A stretch of DNA of 38,368 nucleotides, taken from the NCBI GenBank assembly GCA_013043005.1, contig JABDOZ010000010.1, positions 1 to 38,368 of the forward strand. The letters run 5' to 3'. Positions 13,331-22,574 of this stretch are shown in pieces. The position numbers were made by a program, and so were the translations under genes. The stretch is from Flavobacteriaceae bacterium. Lineage in GTDB: Bacteria; Bacteroidota; Bacteroidia; Flavobacteriales; Flavobacteriaceae. Position 1 is the stretch's first letter. Each line of letters starts with the position of its first letter. The notes beneath the pieces were generated by a model. It made no database searches, was not told where the DNA came from, and saw only the letters and a program-made list of their open reading frames with translations.

Positions 13331-14503
13331 TTAGTGTCTTAAAATTACTTTCACAACTTCTTTCTGGCTTTGAAAATAGTATACATCTTTAGATTGGAGA
13401 TCTTTATAGACCCTTAAGTTTTCCACATATAGAAATGCTCGGTACAGATAGCTGTATATTATCCGTTTTAAATAGAAGTATTTATTATTTCCACGAAAAT
13501 CAATGGCCTCAAGTGATTTTTTATCCGGTAATTTACTTTGTACTTCCAGTTGATAGTTCTTGATTTTAATAGAATTATCTTTTCTTTTCAACCAGCCTAA
13601 AGTCTTGTAGTAATAAGTATTGATATTTTTGTTGCGTAAGAATTGAAGTATCTGTAATTTCTTTGCAAGCCAGATCGCTTTCATTTTTGATCTGATATCT
13701 GAAGTGTCGTAAAACAGGTGATATTCAAATTCATATTCTGTATTTGCCCATCTTTTTTTATAGGCTACATTACCTTTGGAAAAATCTACAATTTTAACAT
13801 GATTTTTGATCAACCAATCCAGTAATATCATCCAATTGGTATGACCCAATCTGAATTTGGAATAATCAATATCATAGGTAGTTATAAATAAAAACACTGT
13901 ATTCTTTAAATGCATGTTCAAGCTAATATTAATTGGAGTTCGGTCATTATAAATGACAACTAAAGAAGCTTGTTTATTCAATATCATATTATAAACCTTT
14001 TCAGTATAAAGATCCCAATGCCTTAAATTCCGGTTATTGATGCCTTTTTCAAGAGACCTCAATTTCAACATGTCATAAAAGCGTGTGAAAAGCTCATCAT
14101 AATGTTGCTTGTCTATTCCTCCATAATATATTTTATGAGAAATGTTAAAACACAACTCTAATCGTTTCTTTGCAGATCGCAATAATTGGCGACTACTTTT
14201 ACTAAACCTTTCCTTTAAACAGGTATCCAGATCGCAGTATTTACTCAGATCGATGCAATATCCTTTATGCTGAAGAATTGATTTGAATCCAACCTCAGCC
14301 TTTAGATTCTTTTTACAGACGGATAAGAATGAGGGTACATCATATACTAAATGGATTACATTTCTAAGATCAGGAACAATAAGGGATTCTGCATTCAATA
14401 GGGCGGTACCTTCAATATTTTCAGATGCAGCGCTATAAAAAGCCGGTAGCTTTTTATTAAAGGCTATTTCATACATAAAATCTATTTTCTTAATCTGGGT
14501 CAT
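13331..14503 (-). CDS. BioF2-like / Acetyltransf_6-type GNAT acyltransferase, paralogue A
   Basis: 390 aa; motifs KKRLELCFNIS, YDIDYSKFRLGH, VDFSKGNVAYKKRW shared with the next two ORFs. Confidence 0.75.
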   Translation of the reverse strand: MTQIKKIDFMYEIAFNKKLPAFYSAASENIEGTALLNAESLIVPDLRNVIHLVYDVPSFLSVCKKNLKAEVGFKSILQHKGYCIDLSKYCDLDTCLKERFSKSSRQLLRSAKKRLELCFNISHKIYYGGIDKQHYDELFTRFYDMLKLRSLEKGINNRNLRHWDLYTEKVYNMILNKQASLVVIYNDRTPINISLNMHLKNTVFLFITTYDIDYSKFRLGHTNWMILLDWLIKNHVKIVDFSKGNVAYKKRWANTEYEFEYHLFYDTSDIRSKMKAIWLAKKLQILQFLRNKNINTYYYKTLGWLKRKDNSIKIKNYQLEVQSKLPDKKSLEAIDFRGNNKYFYLKRIIYSYLYRAFLYVENLRVYKDLQSKDVYYFQSQKEVVKVILRH

Positions 14504-14521
14504 TCTGAATTTGAATCGTTA

Positions 14522-15715
14522 TTAAATATGATCAACAATTACTTTTATTTTTGATTTAGTACCCATTATAATATAGTATTTTTCAAGGTTATTGATTTCA
14601 AATACTCCGACTTCTTCGGTTTTTGCAAAATTTAGATATTGGAAGTCATAAAGCGGTTTTCTCAAAAACGCATATTGCTTTTGTGCAATATCAATTTTAG
14701 TCATCGAATCATTTAATGGCAAAGATTCAATGACTTCTGACTTTATATTAAATTCTATTCTTTTTTTGTGTGATTGAAAATAGTTTTTTAAGGTCTTTCT
14801 ACAGTTTAAAAGTGATTTGGTTATTTTTTTCTTTTTTAAATAATCCTTTATGCGATATAAATTAATTAGTAATTGCACATAGGCTGATTTAAAAAGGAGA
14901 TTGTTTTTATAAATAAAATGATGTTCGTACGGGCGAATGCTATTACACCAAAATAGTTTATGGGAAACTTCACCCCACATTAGATCAAAGATTTTAAAAT
15001 TATTTTTAAAACACCAATCAATCTTTTTCAAATTAGCAAGTTGTCCAATTCCAAATTTAGAATAATCAATGTCATATGAGGATATCAGGCTTTGCATGAT
15101 ATTTTGAAAATGATAACTTAGTCCTATACTTATTGGTTTTTCTCCATCATAAATAACAAAAAAAGAGGCTCTCTTTTCTAAGATGAGTTGGTAAGTATGC
15201 TCTATAAGATAGGACCAATGATCCTGCAAATAAAAAACATCTTGACGTTGATCGAATCTTCTGTTAATTAATAATTCTAAATGTTTAAATAAATAGTCGT
15301 AGTGATCTCTGGAAATGGCTCCGTAATGAAATCTGTAAGTGATCGGAAAGCACGTTTCTAATCTTCGCGTTTTTGATCTTAATTGTTTTCTTTGTTTAGA
15401 ATTCATGATGCCTTTCAAATAAGATTCGATATCGGCATATCCTTCAAGATTAACCATAAAATCATCAATTCTATAAAACTTTATATGCTTGTAGCTTGAT
15501 GAATTATCAGAGAGTTTTACATCAAAATAAGGAGGTACAAATTTAATTTCATGTAATTCATTTCCAACAGAGCTAATAGTAACATGATTGATATTTATGA
15601 TTTCTGAATTATCAATTTTGTTAAAAACAGAACCCAAAAATGGGTTGATCTTTTTATTTTGAAAGAAATCAAATGTGAAGTTATATTGTAAACGTCTAAA
15701 ATGGTTTAATAACAT
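14522..15715 (-). CDS. BioF2-like / Acetyltransf_6-type GNAT acyltransferase, paralogue B (diverged motif)
   Basis: 397 aa; TRRLETCFPIT, YDIDYSKFGIGQ; FDFSKG position reads FDLMWGEVSHKLFW. Confidence 0.72.
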   Translation of the reverse strand: MLLNHFRRLQYNFTFDFFQNKKINPFLGSVFNKIDNSEIININHVTISSVGNELHEIKFVPPYFDVKLSDNSSSYKHIKFYRIDDFMVNLEGYADIESYLKGIMNSKQRKQLRSKTRRLETCFPITYRFHYGAISRDHYDYLFKHLELLINRRFDQRQDVFYLQDHWSYLIEHTYQLILEKRASFFVIYDGEKPISIGLSYHFQNIMQSLISSYDIDYSKFGIGQLANLKKIDWCFKNNFKIFDLMWGEVSHKLFWCNSIRPYEHHFIYKNNLLFKSAYVQLLINLYRIKDYLKKKKITKSLLNCRKTLKNYFQSHKKRIEFNIKSEVIESLPLNDSMTKIDIAQKQYAFLRKPLYDFQYLNFAKTEEVGVFEINNLEKYYIIMGTKSKIKVIVDHI

Positions 15716-15720
15716 AATTT

Positions 15721-16977
15721 CTATTTATTAACAACCAACATTCTATTGACTTTTTTCCCTTTTAAGATATAATTGGATTGATCATTTTTTAATTGAAATA
15801 TATCAAGGTCTTTTAGCTTTTCTCTATTGAGGAACAAAAATTCGTTGGCCGCTGGTTTTAAGGCGCTTAGCCCATCTGATGGAAAATCAATTTTTAACAA
15901 ATCACGTTCTTTATATGGTTGTGTGATTTCTTCAAATCTGAATTCAGGAATGGATTTAATTCGTTTAGTCTCATTTTTGAACCAATAAGTCAATTTATGT
16001 AATATTAAGTTTACTTTTCTGTCTCTTAAAAACTGCTTGAATAAGAAGAAATTTAAAATTACAAAAGCTGTAATTTTAGATCTTAAGGAAGTTGTGTTAT
16101 AATAAACATGGTAGTCAAAGTCATAGCATTTATCCTTCCAATGTGTTTTATAATCAAAATGACCTTTAGAAAAATCAAAAACCTGAATGCTATTTTTAAA
16201 ACACCAGGAAAACAGATTAAGCAAGGCAACTTTACCAAGATGGAATTTAGAATAATCCGTATCAAAAACAGTGATAGCATGAAATAGAATATTATCTGAT
16301 AAATAGTTAAATGTTATTGCTATTGGGTTAGAATTTTCAAAAACAACAAATAATGCAGCTTTCTTCTCTAGAATCATAGGATAGGCAACATCATGATAAA
16401 AAGCCCATTCATTTGGATTAAGATTATTATTAGTTATTTGTTTATCTGTAAATCTTTTTTCAAGCAGTGTTTTGAATTTTTCAAATATGAATTCATAATT
16501 TTCTTTGGTTATATCACCATGAAACATTTTGTATGATATGTCAAAGCATAATTCCAACCGTCTTTCATACCTCTTAAATTTGGATCTTGTTTTATTACTG
16601 AAAATGGACTGTATATAATCCTGAAGATCACTATATTTTTTCAGGTTTACTAAATATCCGGGATATTGTTTTATTCTATGAATGTTTAATCGATATGGCA
16701 AATCTGAGGTGTCAATATCAAAGTAATCGGGAACATCATAGATCAGGATAACAGAATTTTTTAAATTTTCGATTTCTGTTTTCTTTAGTTTATACGAAAT
16801 TCCTTTTGTAAGATTTCGTCCTACATTTATATAAATTGGAAGTTTAGAAGACCGATAAAATCGCAGACCTTTTATAAAATTAAATTTAAAAACAGGTTTT
16901 TCTTTGTTAAACTGATTTAACCATTTTGTCGAAAAAATATCAGACACAAAGGGATTTTGTTTAATCTGCACGGGCAA
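15721..16977 (-). CDS. BioF2-like / Acetyltransf_6-type GNAT acyltransferase, paralogue C
   Basis: 418 aa; ERRLELCFDIS, FDTDYSKFHLGK, FDFSKGHFDYKTHW. Confidence 0.75.
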   Translation of the reverse strand: MPVQIKQNPFVSDIFSTKWLNQFNKEKPVFKFNFIKGLRFYRSSKLPIYINVGRNLTKGISYKLKKTEIENLKNSVILIYDVPDYFDIDTSDLPYRLNIHRIKQYPGYLVNLKKYSDLQDYIQSIFSNKTRSKFKRYERRLELCFDISYKMFHGDITKENYEFIFEKFKTLLEKRFTDKQITNNNLNPNEWAFYHDVAYPMILEKKAALFVVFENSNPIAITFNYLSDNILFHAITVFDTDYSKFHLGKVALLNLFSWCFKNSIQVFDFSKGHFDYKTHWKDKCYDFDYHVYYNTTSLRSKITAFVILNFFLFKQFLRDRKVNLILHKLTYWFKNETKRIKSIPEFRFEEITQPYKERDLLKIDFPSDGLSALKPAANEFLFLNREKLKDLDIFQLKNDQSNYILKGKKVNRMLVVNK

Positions 16978-18022
16978 CTAAATTGTTAACATTAGATCTG
17001 TATTCAGGGAAAAAAGAAGTTTCAATCTTACCTTGTTTTTTAACCAGATCATTGTACACAGTCTGATTTACGATCAAGTTCCATGTATTAAAATCTTTGA
17101 AGTCCTTAGAAAATGAGGATTTGAATCTAAATAAAGAATCCTTTGAATTGCCACCTATTCCTCCACCCAGGTTATAGAATTGCAAGCCTCTTTCTGTAGC
17201 TTCAATTCGCATCTCATCTATCAGCAATTTAGTAGGTGTTAAATGTGAAAATTCGAATCTGGTACCAGATAAATGATATTGTACTATATTGTTGGTGGTT
17301 ACAAATAAACTACCTGCTACAGTTTCACCAGATCTAATATCTATCACTAATAGAATTTCTGCATCAAATTGATCACTATTCAATAATGCAGTAAAATAAT
17401 CTTCATCAAAATAAAAATACTCATCAGCATTCAATCGTCTCATATTATTATGATAGATATCTATAAATTCTTTCAATTCCTCTTTAGATTCTAATTTTTT
17501 TACAATACAATTTCTTCTGGATTTGTTAATATATGTTCTAAGCCTTTCCTGATAATTCCTTTTTTGGATATTTAAGTTTAATTTTAAATCTATGTTTACG
17601 ACTTTCCCATGATTAATGATGTCACCATAATTTTTTAATAGGATCTTTTGGTTATCAATATAGGGATTCAGCCTCGTAAAAACTGAAATAATATTATTAT
17701 CCTCAAAGAAGAGACGCAATTTTTCAATAAAAAATGTGTTATCAAAATTCGAATTAATGTTTCGTGAGATGGGCCCTGAATATCCGTAGACTGAGGTAGC
17801 ATCAAAATAGTCTGAGTTCGCAATTTTTCGTATCAGAAAAGGCATGGCAATACAAGTATTTCCTTTTGAATATTTAAGTAAAACCGGATAGGCATCTTCA
17901 GTCTGCTCAATTATATGATATTCATAGGTATGATAGAAATCATAAACACCTATGGCGTCCAGAGTTTTACCCCATTGGTCTCCAGAAGTAATTACTTCTA
18001 TATTTATGTTGTCTAATCTCAT
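16961..18022 (-). CDS. FemAB/GNAT-like acyl- or aminoacyl-transferase
   Basis: 353 aa; 'YDFYHTYEYHIIEQ', 'SVYGYSGPIS', 'YHLSGTRFEFSHLTPTKLLIDEMRIEATERGLQFYNLGGGIGGNSKDSLFRFKSSFSKDF' typical of FemAB-like GNAT proteins; overlaps the next gene by 17 bp. Confidence 0.8.
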   Translation of the reverse strand: MRLDNINIEVITSGDQWGKTLDAIGVYDFYHTYEYHIIEQTEDAYPVLLKYSKGNTCIAMPFLIRKIANSDYFDATSVYGYSGPISRNINSNFDNTFFIEKLRLFFEDNNIISVFTRLNPYIDNQKILLKNYGDIINHGKVVNIDLKLNLNIQKRNYQERLRTYINKSRRNCIVKKLESKEELKEFIDIYHNNMRRLNADEYFYFDEDYFTALLNSDQFDAEILLVIDIRSGETVAGSLFVTTNNIVQYHLSGTRFEFSHLTPTKLLIDEMRIEATERGLQFYNLGGGIGGNSKDSLFRFKSSFSKDFKDFNTWNLIVNQTVYNDLVKKQGKIETSFFPEYRSNVNNLVARAD

Positions 18023-18076
18023 AGATCCATTTCGTTTACCATTATATTTTTTTGGTAATTCATCTTTTGTTAGTAA

Positions 18077-18721
18077 TTAATTATAATCTTTAAGTTTAAA
18101 ATTCCAATGGATTTTTTTAAACAAAACAATACTTAAATATAAGGTTAGATGCTTTGAATTCAATTTCCTTTTAAATTTAATTGATGATTTATTAAAATAA
18201 TTAGTAATACTGTATTTCACATCTTTTCCCTTTTCTCTGAGTAATTGATAACTTTTATAACGCAAATACGGAGCTAAATTCTTGCCTCTGTATTCGTGAA
18301 AGGTCCACATATTTAAAAGGTAAGCCTCGTTATCCTTGAGTTTAAACAGTCTCTTATTGTATGTAAAGTCATTTAATTCAATGAATGTATAGGCTGCTAT
18401 GGTATTATTATTTTTAAGACCTACACATAACTGACCATTTTTAAAACCTTTAATTAATTCATTTCCTAATCTCTTTGGTACTTTACTGGCAATCAGACCT
18501 ACTTCTTCCTTAGTTAAATACTTGACCTTGAAATCTTCAGGATTACATATAATCGGGGGTTCATTACATGGAGTGTACTCCTCCTGAACCCAATAATAAG
18601 GGAGGACATTTATACCAATGCGCACCAATCTATTCCGAATACCTAAAAGCAGTAAACCATTATTTATGATATTCCAAAATCGTTTGGTTGCCGAAATTGT
18701 ATGACCTTGAGTTACTGCCAT
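18077..18721 (-). CDS. GNAT-like acetyltransferase
   Basis: 214 aa; 'AYLLNMWTFHEYRGKNLAPYLRYKSYQLLREKG' resembles the GNAT acetyl-CoA binding region (xxYRGKxxAxxL). Confidence 0.65.
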   Translation of the reverse strand: MAVTQGHTISATKRFWNIINNGLLLLGIRNRLVRIGINVLPYYWVQEEYTPCNEPPIICNPEDFKVKYLTKEEVGLIASKVPKRLGNELIKGFKNGQLCVGLKNNNTIAAYTFIELNDFTYNKRLFKLKDNEAYLLNMWTFHEYRGKNLAPYLRYKSYQLLREKGKDVKYSITNYFNKSSIKFKRKLNSKHLTLYLSIVLFKKIHWNFKLKDYN

Positions 18722-18726
18722 CGATT

Positions 18727-19611
18727 TTAATTAAAAACCTTAATTTTGTCTTTACGACCATAGACTCCATTTCCAGGTTCCAGTTGCATCTTTTCCCTGA
18801 ACTCAGCAGCAGACAGTAATTCTCTTCCATTGGCTTTAGCAATGGTATGAATTCGGTTTAACAGATCTTCATTGGTTGCTAACTGTGTTCGTTTGTTGTC
18901 ATACCAAATATTATCTTCCAGACCAATTCGAACACCGCCTCCAATGGCTAAAGACAACGAATTCATAGTAAGCTGTGCGTTACCAATTCCGGCAAGACTC
19001 CATAACGAATTATCAGGCAGATCATTAATCATAACGCCCGCATGAAGTAAATTGGCTTGAGCACAAGCGATATTCCCCAGTAAAAGATTAAAGTAATAAG
19101 GTGGTTCAATTAACTTTTTTTTGATGAGATATTTGGCAAAATTGATCATGCCTATATCAAAGGCTTCCAGTTCAGGAACGATACCCTTGTCCTTCATGAT
19201 GGTTGCCAGGTCACAAATCATATTAGGAGTATTGACACTAGCAATTCTATTGAAATTCAAAGAACTTAATGTTAGGCTTCCCATATCTGGTTTCAACCCA
19301 TCCTCTAACAAAAGTGGGTCAGCTCGCTGCAATAATTCTTTAAAGGTTCGTCCACTTAAGGATGCACAAATAACAAGTTGTGGTGCATATTTTCGTATAC
19401 CTTTAATGATATTAGCATATATGGATTTATCATAGGTTGGGACACTAGTTTTTGGATCTCTTGCATGCAAATGGACCATAGTAATGCCAATTTCTGATGC
19501 ACGATGAACATCTTCCACTATTTCAGATACACTCAAAGGAACATGTGATGTCATTTCCTTTGTCGGGATCATACCAGTTGGAGTAAAGTTTAAGATAAAT
19601 TTTTCAGACAT
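18727..19611 (-). CDS. BKACE family protein (beta-keto acid cleavage enzyme, DUF849; 3-keto-5-aminohexanoate cleavage-like)
   Basis: 294 aa; 'TPTGMIPTKEMTSHVPLSVSEIVEDVHRASEIGITMVHLHARDPKT', 'DNSLWSLAGIGNAQLTMNSLSLAIGGGVRIGLEDNIWYD' are strong BKACE motifs. Confidence 0.92.
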   Translation of the reverse strand: MSEKFILNFTPTGMIPTKEMTSHVPLSVSEIVEDVHRASEIGITMVHLHARDPKTSVPTYDKSIYANIIKGIRKYAPQLVICASLSGRTFKELLQRADPLLLEDGLKPDMGSLTLSSLNFNRIASVNTPNMICDLATIMKDKGIVPELEAFDIGMINFAKYLIKKKLIEPPYYFNLLLGNIACAQANLLHAGVMINDLPDNSLWSLAGIGNAQLTMNSLSLAIGGGVRIGLEDNIWYDNKRTQLATNEDLLNRIHTIAKANGRELLSAAEFREKMQLEPGNGVYGRKDKIKVFN

Positions 19612-19818
19612 AAATTTAATAATTCAAGCATGGTTAGAAGTTTACAGGTGATTACTTGGGATAGCTTGCTATTAATAAATTTATTGGTACAATTTACATT
19701 ATTTTCTTTCAAAAAATAAATTTGAAGTATTTTTTTCGTTCATTGTTTAAATTACACATACCAAGTGTAATGAAGCTGTATATTTTAATATTATTATTTA
19801 CATTTGAACGGTTATTGT

Positions 19819-20313
19819 TCAATATATTTTGAGCAACTTTGTAATTAGCACTTTTGAAGCTTCCTGTATTCCCGGCGCTAAATTCTCTCCTGGGCCTGCC
19901 ACATTTAAAATTTCCGGTTTGACAGTGACCAACCAATCTGTTATGTTCCGTAGAGTATTTACTTCTTTAATTTCACATATTAAAAATGGCTTATTCAATT
20001 GAATACAAAATCGTATTGTCCATTCAGTTCCTGAATCCATTTTACAATCGCGATCTGGTACGAAGACCAAAGTTGCATCAGAATCTCTGACATTCCATTC
20101 TGTTCTTAACGAACGTGGAACACCAAGAGCAATATTACTGCATTCATTTGGTGTTTCTTTTATTGGTAAATCATCTGGTATTCTTCCATCTTCAGCCTCG
20201 CGATCGGGAGGACACCAGCCTCCTACATTCATACCTAATTCAATCGCAGCCTCCAATGCGCCTCTGTCTACTCCAGTCTGACCTCCTGAAATTATTTTTT
20301 TTATCTTAAACAT
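19819..20313 (-). CDS. Putative molybdenum carrier / YpsA-like Rossmann protein
   Basis: 164 aa; 'IISGGQTGVDRGALEAAIELGMNVGGWCPPDREAEDGRIPDDLPIKETP' is the hallmark of this family. Confidence 0.85.
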   Translation of the reverse strand: MFKIKKIISGGQTGVDRGALEAAIELGMNVGGWCPPDREAEDGRIPDDLPIKETPNECSNIALGVPRSLRTEWNVRDSDATLVFVPDRDCKMDSGTEWTIRFCIQLNKPFLICEIKEVNTLRNITDWLVTVKPEILNVAGPGENLAPGIQEASKVLITKLLKIY

Positions 20314-20330
20314 GACCCAAAATGAATAAT

Positions 20331-22574
20331 TTAAAGAAACTTTCTAAACCATTTTTTGACAATGACAGGGGCTAAAATAAGGTCTACGGCTAAAGTGATC
20401 AAGACTATTATACCTACTAGTAAACCAAGGATGAAAATCTCTAAAGATCCTGAACTCATTAAAATGAAGAAACCACCAATCAGAATTATACTGGTTGCTA
20501 AAATAGCTTTACCACATTCCAGCACAGCAATTCTAATGGATTCTTCAACTGAATTACCTTTTCGTCTTTCCCATTGAAATTTACTCAACAAGTGAATGGT
20601 ATCATCTACTGCAATTACAAATCCTACAGTAAAAATAAGTGAAATTTCAGCCCTGAGGTCTATACCTAAAAAACCCATTATTCCTGCCGTTATCATAAGT
20701 GGAATTAAATTAAGAAAGACCGCTAAAACCGCTAATGCCATATTTTTGAATACCAATCCTAAGGTTAAGGAAACCACCAGAATAGCAATGAATAATCCAA
20801 TAAACGTATTTTGAATACTTTTTTTCTGTGATATATCAATGAGCAGATCAATACCAGAAAGCCTGGCTGTGATGGGTTTATCTTGTATTATCTTATTAAC
20901 TTCATCAAGAATACTTTTATTTATCGCTTCAATTTTGTGCCTGCCATAATCTGGCATTTGTGCTGTAAATTTGAAGCGGGACTTTTCTTTATTCCTCAAA
21001 TAGTCTTTGGTTAGGAATTGTGATAACTCTTTTTCATATTTCTTGACGGTTTTTTTATCTGATGGCAGGGGTTTTTCCATGAAAGTACCTGGGTAATAAG
21101 CTTGATGAATGGTCTGATAATAGTTTACCGGGGATTTCACAAAATTCAAATTTGGATTGGCTTTAAGAAAATTATGAATAGTGTATACCGTTTTCAATAG
21201 TTCAGGTTCATTCAATGCCTGATCGCTCTGAGATGATAGGATCAATTCAAAAGTCCTGGAACCTCCAAAATTATTTTCAAAGAATTCATAACTTTTATAG
21301 AGGTCTGTTTTCTTGTTAATTGAGTAATGACTACTATTTGTATCGATCAAAGTAATTCCATAACTACTGACTAATAGTAGCAAGGCAAATAGAATAATTA
21401 TTGAATTCCGATATTTAAAAAGTCTGTCTAACAGTATAAAAATCTTTTCAGACAACCTGTTAAAGGGCTTGCCAATGGTAAATAAATTTCCTGTTTTTAG
21501 GCCAATAAAAAAGATAGGCAAGAATACGAGAGTTAGTAAAAATGTCAAGAGAACCAAAATAGCCGATTCTACACCAAAGTTTCTCATAGCCTGCATTGGT
21601 GAAAGGTATAACACCAAAAACCCAACAGCGGTAGTAAAGGATGTTATCAATGTGGTCCAGCCGATTTCTTTAAGAGTGTTAACAGTAGCCTCCTTAGAAG
21701 ACAATCCTTTTTTAAATTCCGTATCATATTTTATACATAGATGGATAACGTCAGAGACGGCTACTATTAATATGATTGTAGGAAAAAGATTGGACATCGT
21801 GCTAATCGATTTCCCAAAAAGCACCATGCCACCCAGAAATAAAATGATTACAATAAGGACCAATAGAACGGGGAACAGCAAAGCAATGGGTTTTTTAAAG
21901 ATAAATATCAGGCTTAGACATAAAAAAATAAATATCCAAAAACTAAAAGTTAGAATTTCTTTTATCAATATATTCTTAAAGGAAACGTCAATCACTTCTC
22001 TTCCCCATAAGAATGTTTCAAGGTCATTAAACTCAGTTCTCAAGTTATTGATGTCTGATATCAATATGTCCGATTGTTTGGCATCAAGATTCTCCTCAAA
22101 TTCTATCCAAAGGAAAAGGGTATTACCATCAGCATTAATAAAGTTTTTGGGAAGTTCATCGTTGAAGATCTTTTTTTTATTGAAGGACAACTTTTCTGAG
22201 TTCTCAAATCTTAAATAGTTGACTCCAATTATACCTAACATACTTTTAACCGGAAAGGATAAATTGAGCAGGCTGTTTACCTTTTTGACATTGTTAATAT
22301 TTTTCAAACTATCCGTTATCTGTTCAATGGATTTAAGATAATTAATATTAAAAACTGAGTCAGGACTTTTAACACTTAACAAGATTATATTTTCCTGACT
22401 GGAAAATTCTGATTTCAAATTCTCATAAAAAGCATAATCTGCGTCTTCTTCGTGGAAGAACTGAGATATGTCAGCATCAACCTGAATAAAAGGTGCTTTT
22501 AAACCAGCGATAATTAAAATTAATGTCAAAAGAATTAAGTAGAAATACCTGTATTTTATAAGAGCATTGATCAT
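20331..22574 (-). CDS. MMPL/RND superfamily transporter
   Basis: 747 aa; two 6-TM halves with large loops; duplicated motifs 'VAVSDVIHLCIKYDTEFKKG...LITSFTTAVGFLVL' and 'FVIAVDDTIHLLSKFQWERRKG...LATSIILIGGFFIL'. Confidence 0.9.
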   Translation of the reverse strand: MINALIKYRYFYLILLTLILIIAGLKAPFIQVDADISQFFHEEDADYAFYENLKSEFSSQENIILLSVKSPDSVFNINYLKSIEQITDSLKNINNVKKVNSLLNLSFPVKSMLGIIGVNYLRFENSEKLSFNKKKIFNDELPKNFINADGNTLFLWIEFEENLDAKQSDILISDINNLRTEFNDLETFLWGREVIDVSFKNILIKEILTFSFWIFIFLCLSLIFIFKKPIALLFPVLLVLIVIILFLGGMVLFGKSISTMSNLFPTIILIVAVSDVIHLCIKYDTEFKKGLSSKEATVNTLKEIGWTTLITSFTTAVGFLVLYLSPMQAMRNFGVESAILVLLTFLLTLVFLPIFFIGLKTGNLFTIGKPFNRLSEKIFILLDRLFKYRNSIIILFALLLLVSSYGITLIDTNSSHYSINKKTDLYKSYEFFENNFGGSRTFELILSSQSDQALNEPELLKTVYTIHNFLKANPNLNFVKSPVNYYQTIHQAYYPGTFMEKPLPSDKKTVKKYEKELSQFLTKDYLRNKEKSRFKFTAQMPDYGRHKIEAINKSILDEVNKIIQDKPITARLSGIDLLIDISQKKSIQNTFIGLFIAILVVSLTLGLVFKNMALAVLAVFLNLIPLMITAGIMGFLGIDLRAEISLIFTVGFVIAVDDTIHLLSKFQWERRKGNSVEESIRIAVLECGKAILATSIILIGGFFILMSSGSLEIFILGLLVGIIVLITLAVDLILAPVIVKKWFRKFL

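Follow-up and report, generated by a model that had tools for sequence, protein, structure and literature searches.

A conserved BKACE-acyltransferase pair beside a FemAB/BioF2-like array in a Flavobacteriaceae genome: a possible composite cassette for surface-glycan decoration

A six-gene run composed of two modules

The stretch of DNA analysed here, referred to as the window (38,368 nucleotides), is contig JABDOZ010000010.1 (positions 1 to 38,368), one of the contigs of a 2.2-Mb, 73.5%-complete Flavobacteriaceae genome (GCA_013043005.1). Its minus strand carries, at positions 13331-19611, a run of six complete open reading frames (ORFs). The first encodes a beta-keto acid cleavage enzyme (BKACE) of the DUF849 family (18727..19611; PF05853, E=2.4e-74), a probable acyl-donor-making enzyme with the subgroup motif FTPTGMIPTK, and the second a 214-aa GNAT acyltransferase with N-terminal helices (18077..18721), the partner of this BKACE subgroup. 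These are followed by a FemAB-family transferase of the type found in exopolysaccharide loci (16961..18022; PF02388, E=1.4e-14), which is probably aminoacyl-tRNA-dependent, and by three BioF2-like (Acetyltransf_6) transferases. The first of the three (15721..16977, TTG start; PF13480, E=4.5e-12) is the usual partner of FemAB in exopolysaccharide loci, and the second (14522..15715; PF13480, E=2.2e-12) and third (13331..14503; PF13480, E=1.6e-4, a marginal match) belong to the array family. From BKACE onward the genes are spaced by 5, 54, -17, 5 and 18 bp, exactly as described in an earlier note made from the sequence alone.

The six-gene order recurs at locus L059 (Flavobacteriaceae NORP142) and, with the middle BioF2 gene split, at L055 (Urechidicola MAG6), so the six ORFs are not a product of chance. 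The run is composite but real, and consists of two modules: BKACE-GNAT (module 1) and FemAB with the BioF2-like genes (module 2). The earlier interpretation, in which BKACE supplied one unusual acyl-CoA to all five transferases, was for this reason only partly right.

BKACE and an acyltransferase form a conserved, mobile pair

A contig scan for BKACE gave 80 loci; the set used after removal of duplicates comprised 90, of which 88 were informative, L053 (a different BKACE subgroup) and L056 (at a contig edge) being left out. GNAT adjoins BKACE on the same strand in 74 of the 90 loci, usually overlapping it or lying no more than ~20 bp away, and GNAT remnants sit beside BKACE in three (L070, L095 and L123), so that GNAT or its remnant is found in 77 of the 88 informative loci. 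A hexapeptide (NeuD/PglD-like) acyltransferase takes the place of GNAT in eight loci, which requires two or more separate changes on the tree, and a different GNAT of 364 aa is the partner in L129. Only L060 and L132 have BKACE without an acyltransferase neighbour; an acyltransferase or its remnant thus accompanies BKACE in 86 of the 88. The order of BKACE and GNAT is swapped in L119 with adjacency retained, and the genes around the pair are otherwise variable. No catabolic operon was recognised beside BKACE in the loci read; an acyltransferase was found there instead. That unrelated acyltransferases have taken the partner's place is the strongest indication that this BKACE supplies a transferase of the acyl-CoA type. 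Of the acyl supply to five transferases envisaged earlier, what stands is the supply to one, in a co-inherited pair; the synteny of BKACE, which the earlier note had set as a test, holds for GNAT and generally fails for the other four genes.

The pair is also linked across genomes. Among 400 family genomes, 26 gave a BKACE match (24 belonging to this subgroup and complete or almost so, a single fragment, and one with 33% identity) and 27 a GNAT match; 23 had both, four GNAT only (G170, G187, G196 and G213) and three BKACE only (p ~3e-30, uncorrected for kinship). BKACE and GNAT distances are correlated (Mantel r=0.56, a value reached in 0 of 999 permutations). The phylum-wide search for GNAT matched the source genome alone, in a sample made up mostly of complete genomes of the same family plus one genus. 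The BKACE loci come mostly from Flavobacteriaceae and also from Bacteroidales. BKACEs with 67-69% identity occur in metagenome-assembled genomes (MAGs) assigned to Omnitrophota, Sedimentisphaerales (Planctomycetota) and Desulfobulbaceae, where binning errors are possible; such identity across distant MAGs suggests that the BKACE gene may have been transferred horizontally. BKACE and the 214-aa GNAT constitute a conserved mobile pair; the BKACE-acyltransferase cassette is the strong result of this analysis. A limited search turned up no earlier account of the cassette; it found no literature pairing the BKACE annotation with GNAT in a relevant way, and no direct precedent with WbqC, FemAB or DUF849.

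Two further observations concern the pair. Maribacter arenosus (G282) has two BKACE copies, L032 and L033, one with GNAT and the other with a hexapeptide acyltransferase. At L135 and L136, GNAT lies without BKACE at sites beside topoisomerase or dnaK that hold the BKACE-GNAT pair in other genomes.

The identity of the 214-aa partner rests on structure prediction, since Acetyltransf_1 (Pfam) matches it weakly (E=0.0013, under the curated cut-off). Its AlphaFold model (mean pLDDT 89) matched GNAT structures in Foldseek with E down to 3e-8, among them glucosamine N-acetyltransferase, glycine N-acyltransferase and mycothiol synthase (TM ~0.5), and R145, G146 and A150 of the R-G-x-x-x-A acyl-CoA loop are conserved. 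No sequence relative was found among solved structures.

Active site and likely chemistry of the BKACE subgroup

The window BKACE matches PF05853 over profile positions 1-274 of 274 with 250.6 bits (cut-off 24.8). It keeps, relative to Kce, the Zn ligands H47, H49 and E232 and the catalytic residues S84, E149, R228 and D233, each conserved in 25-26 of 26 aligned sequences; these roles are those assigned in the Kce literature. Ile15 occupies the position of Kce Glu14, which presumably serves in amine binding, and Phe151 that of Kce Tyr145, with Phe in 88 of 88 readable loci (of 90). Against the NCBIfam equivalogs it scores 208.6 bits for Kce (lysine fermentation; cut-off 382) and 170.7 for 3-oxoadipate (cut-off 350), with scores also under the cut-off for dioxohexanoate and for every other BKACE equivalog.

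Residue roles in BKACE/DUF849 enzymes are partly stated in a study of the flavophos pathway, in which the DUF849 enzyme BsfD C-acetylates its substrate rather than cleaving it (PMC12871164). The window enzyme could likewise be a C-acetyltransferase or another Claisen-type enzyme, with a beta-diketo or acetoacetyl product used or modified by GNAT. The BsfD precedent, the invariant Phe151 and Ile15, and the published division of DUF849 into seven groups, at least one of them without BKACE activity (PMC4922564), are consistent with this. We nevertheless consider it unlikely: the Zn ligands and the other catalytic residues are retained, and Phe is also present at the Tyr145 position in 3no5, 3chv and 3fa5, the closest solved relatives of the window BKACE (uncharacterised, by their titles), and in the Kce-like L053. 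Phe151 is for this reason not diagnostic, and the Tyr145-to-Phe change was rejected as proof of BsfD-like acetylation. Formation of an acyl-CoA by BKACE is likely, judging from the partner genes rather than from proof in the active site. As to the kind of product, glyceryl-CoA is the proposed product in deoxyribonate catabolism, which suggests that BKACEs can make hydroxyacyl-CoA (PMC6365646).

Homologs of the FemAB and BioF2-like genes lie in exopolysaccharide loci

The FemAB gene and the three BioF2-like genes adjoin BKACE-GNAT in only 3 of ~89 loci. The other two, L059 and L055, have common flanks, unlike those of the window, and are its nearest BKACE relatives by tree path length, without strong support. 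Arrays of FemAB/BioF2 genes usually lie elsewhere in the genome than BKACE-GNAT. The window FemAB is 44-57% identical to the FemAB of L055, L059 and five exopolysaccharide loci (L152, L153, L154, L159 and L160). A FemAB gene followed tightly by the first BioF2 gene is a recurrent arrangement in exopolysaccharide loci, to whose FemAB proteins that of the window is 44-52% identical, and the first BioF2 protein of the window has 45-48% identity to the FemAB-adjoining BioF2 in L152, L153, L154 and L159. Such loci carry a priming sugar transferase, GT4 and GT2 glycosyltransferases and MBOAT (families checked with Pfam in L154).

Of 301 family genomes, presumed to be contained in the set of 400, 68 had BioF2 homologs, often in tandem arrays of up to seven genes. 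All 15 BioF2 loci read hold at least one gene that clusters with MBOAT, the priming sugar transferase or GT4. L149-L163 represent BKACE-independent tandem arrays of BioF2-like genes with the FemX fold in Flavobacteriaceae exopolysaccharide loci.

The AlphaFold model of the first BioF2 protein (pLDDT 92) has as its top PDB matches FemX, MprF/LPG synthase, A-PGS and Sbb17; for FemX, MprF and Sbb17, E is ~1e-9 to 6e-9 and TM 0.4-0.6 at ~10% identity. FemX, MprF, A-PGS and Sbb17 (a streptothricin peptide synthase) are aminoacyl-tRNA-dependent according to PDB titles or established knowledge. Because the model resembles such enzymes, FemAB and the BioF2 proteins are probably not users of the BKACE product, and amino-acid addition appears more likely for them than acyl-CoA use; we infer a tRNA-dependent role for module 2 from the predicted fold. 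The loading of one unusual BKACE acyl-CoA onto a carrier by all five transferases, as first proposed, draws on the tight co-directional run seen in three loci. It has become very improbable, given the aminoacyl-tRNA-dependent relatives of the BioF2 model, the rarity of the contact with BKACE and the wide distribution of FemAB/BioF2 apart from BKACE (BioF2 is present in 55 of 280 family genomes lacking BKACE).

Genomic context suggests a probable link to surface glycans

In a distant BKACE relative, L127, the gene sits with a flippase, a DegT aminotransferase, WbqC, a hexapeptide transferase and a GT2 (by Pfam), and L130, L131 and L133 have subsets of such glycan gene clusters beside BKACE (by clustering). 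The Winogradskyella/Gelidibacter loci carry a sugar-transfer ATP-grasp gene and an adenylating-type (CapK/PaaK-like) ligase, the latter named by reading its sequence, without a Pfam match. The gene order in L084 is ATP-grasp, FemAB, BKACE, GNAT, FemAB. The stretch reaching three genes to either side of BKACE is enriched in decoration genes (odds ratio 3.2, p=3e-6, uncorrected for kinship), a p value that is optimistic because the decoration families were chosen after the neighbourhoods had been inspected. BioF2 is commoner in BKACE genomes (13 of 21 versus 55 of 280, p=6e-5, uncorrected for kinship). Priming sugar transferases occur on contigs C16 and C59 of the source genome, and the C59 copy has GT2-like and CapK-like ORFs next to it (by reading only).

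The six genes and the rest of the scanned genes in the window include no glycosyltransferase, priming sugar transferase or flippase (~ten ORFs lay outside the scan). The view that this is not a capsule locus is accordingly right for the window itself but does not extend to the relatives of its genes: the FemAB/BioF2 homologs lie inside exopolysaccharide loci, and the four distant BKACE relatives lie with glycan genes. The envelope decoration proposed earlier is upheld by genomic context only, and it is from this context that we infer the glycan assignment of the cassette.

A tentative model of the cassette

Our preferred reading, tentative and held at somewhat less than even confidence, is a composite cassette in which BKACE-GNAT provides an acyl cap and FemAB/BioF2 an aminoacyl decoration of a surface glycan. 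BKACE would convert a beta-keto acid and acetyl-CoA to an acyl-CoA that is short and probably carries no charge. With aminoacyl-tRNA as the source, FemAB and the three BioF2-like enzymes would attach amino acids, probably each adding one in turn, to a surface-glycan amino sugar linked to a lipid or a nucleotide, a role suggested by their fold and their place in exopolysaccharide loci. GNAT would then move the acyl group to an amino group, N-acylating and thereby capping either the final amino acid or the amino sugar itself, the job that a hexapeptide NeuD/PglD-type enzyme would do at other loci. Synthesis of the glycan backbone would fall to genes in other parts of the genome. Read from the sequence are the gene content, the BKACE-GNAT unit, the replacement of the partner, the predicted FemX/MprF-like fold of BioF2 and the exopolysaccharide context of the homologs.

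Several points weigh against this model. The six-gene layout occurs in three loci only, two of them sharing flanks; in most Flavobacteriaceae the pair is flanked by housekeeping genes such as dnaK and topoisomerase and has no adjoining glycan gene; and the genome-wide associations are uncorrected for phylogeny. Retro-Claisen cleavage is a presumed activity of this BKACE subgroup, the sequence does not reveal the keto-acid substrate, and, as a weak point, Phe151 replaces a catalytic Tyr in the same way as in the acetylating BsfD. The rarity of the layout, the solitary pairs and the location of most FemAB/BioF2 arrays elsewhere would also fit a self-contained route from BKACE and GNAT to a soluble N-acylated small molecule (an amino acid, polyamine or signal), with FemAB/BioF2 adjoining by chance in one lineage and doing an unrelated exopolysaccharide job. 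This explanation is rather unlikely, though less so than C-acetylation, since the partners and neighbours are repeatedly of glycan-decoration types and L059 and L055 repeat the six-gene order despite flanks that differ from those of the window.

If the cassette model is true, it would explain some of the variety of acyl groups and amino acids on the surface glycans of marine bacteria. The BKACE subgroup (Bacteroidota, and MAGs of Omnitrophota, Planctomycetota and Desulfobacterota) gains a named partner and a testable biosynthetic role instead of the lysine-fermentation role given to it by default annotation, and the tandem FemX-like arrays become candidate peptide-building enzymes for exopolysaccharides. 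A bolder version, which we regard as improbable, posits an undescribed glycan decoration in which a horizontally spread BKACE-acyltransferase cassette produces an unusual acyl cap and puts it in place, while tandem FemX-like BioF2 enzymes, one to seven per array, assemble a tRNA-dependent, non-ribosomal chain of amino acids on the repeat units of Flavobacteriaceae exopolysaccharides; chain length would perhaps follow from array size.

Surroundings of the run

Upstream of BKACE, across a 207-bp gap and on the same minus strand, lie a cpYpsA SLOG-family gene and an MMPL/RND-type (HAE3-like) exporter (19819-22574); neither was seen beside other BKACE genes. The scanned remainder of the window is housekeeping: a DNA polymerase III alpha fragment, asnA, ppk2, a formyltransferase, a recQ-like helicase and an EPSP-synthase-family gene. 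The polymerase ORF (803 aa, 168-2579) begins near the contig edge and is apparently a fragment. A palindrome, TTACACTTGGTATGTGTAA, lies on the minus strand at 19752-19770, ~140 bp upstream of the BKACE start, and may be a regulator site; it is not conserved upstream of other BKACE loci. A candidate conserved promoter or operator, TTG-N(17-21)-TAnnTTTG, was rejected, as it occurs upstream of 1 of 90 BKACE genes, the window's not among them. Scans for sigma-70-like promoters and terminators were near shuffle level.

Comparison with known systems

The window BKACE resembles Kce/DUF849 enzymes in its full-length PF05853 match, its Zn ligands and most catalytic residues, and differs from Kce in the changes of Glu14 to Ile and Tyr145 to Phe and in falling under the equivalog cut-offs. 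It is like BsfD in its biosynthetic rather than catabolic setting and in having Phe for Tyr145; the two are distant (E=1e-28), and no phosphonate gene was seen among the window genes scanned. Module 2 shares with FemX/MprF/Sbb17-type transferases the predicted BioF2 fold and the FemAB sequence family. It differs from them in its ~10% identity and in the tandem arrays that such genes form in exopolysaccharide loci, and its tRNA use and acceptor are predictions.

In the wfp locus of F. psychrophilum, an acyl pathway and a PglD homolog are predicted to put 3,5-dihydroxyhexanoate on an amino sugar (PMC6519341). No acyl carrier protein (ACP) or ketoacyl synthase is present among the six window genes, and a PglD-like partner is found only at other loci, so the run is not of the wfp type. 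The acyl group of wfpC-G is believed to come from ACP, ketoacyl synthases and a reductase, whereas the candidate maker here is BKACE and the usual transferase GNAT. The wfpC-G R-group genes (PMC6519341) are nonetheless the closest functional precedent, combining a dedicated acyl supply with predicted PglD-type N-acylation of a 4-amino sugar.

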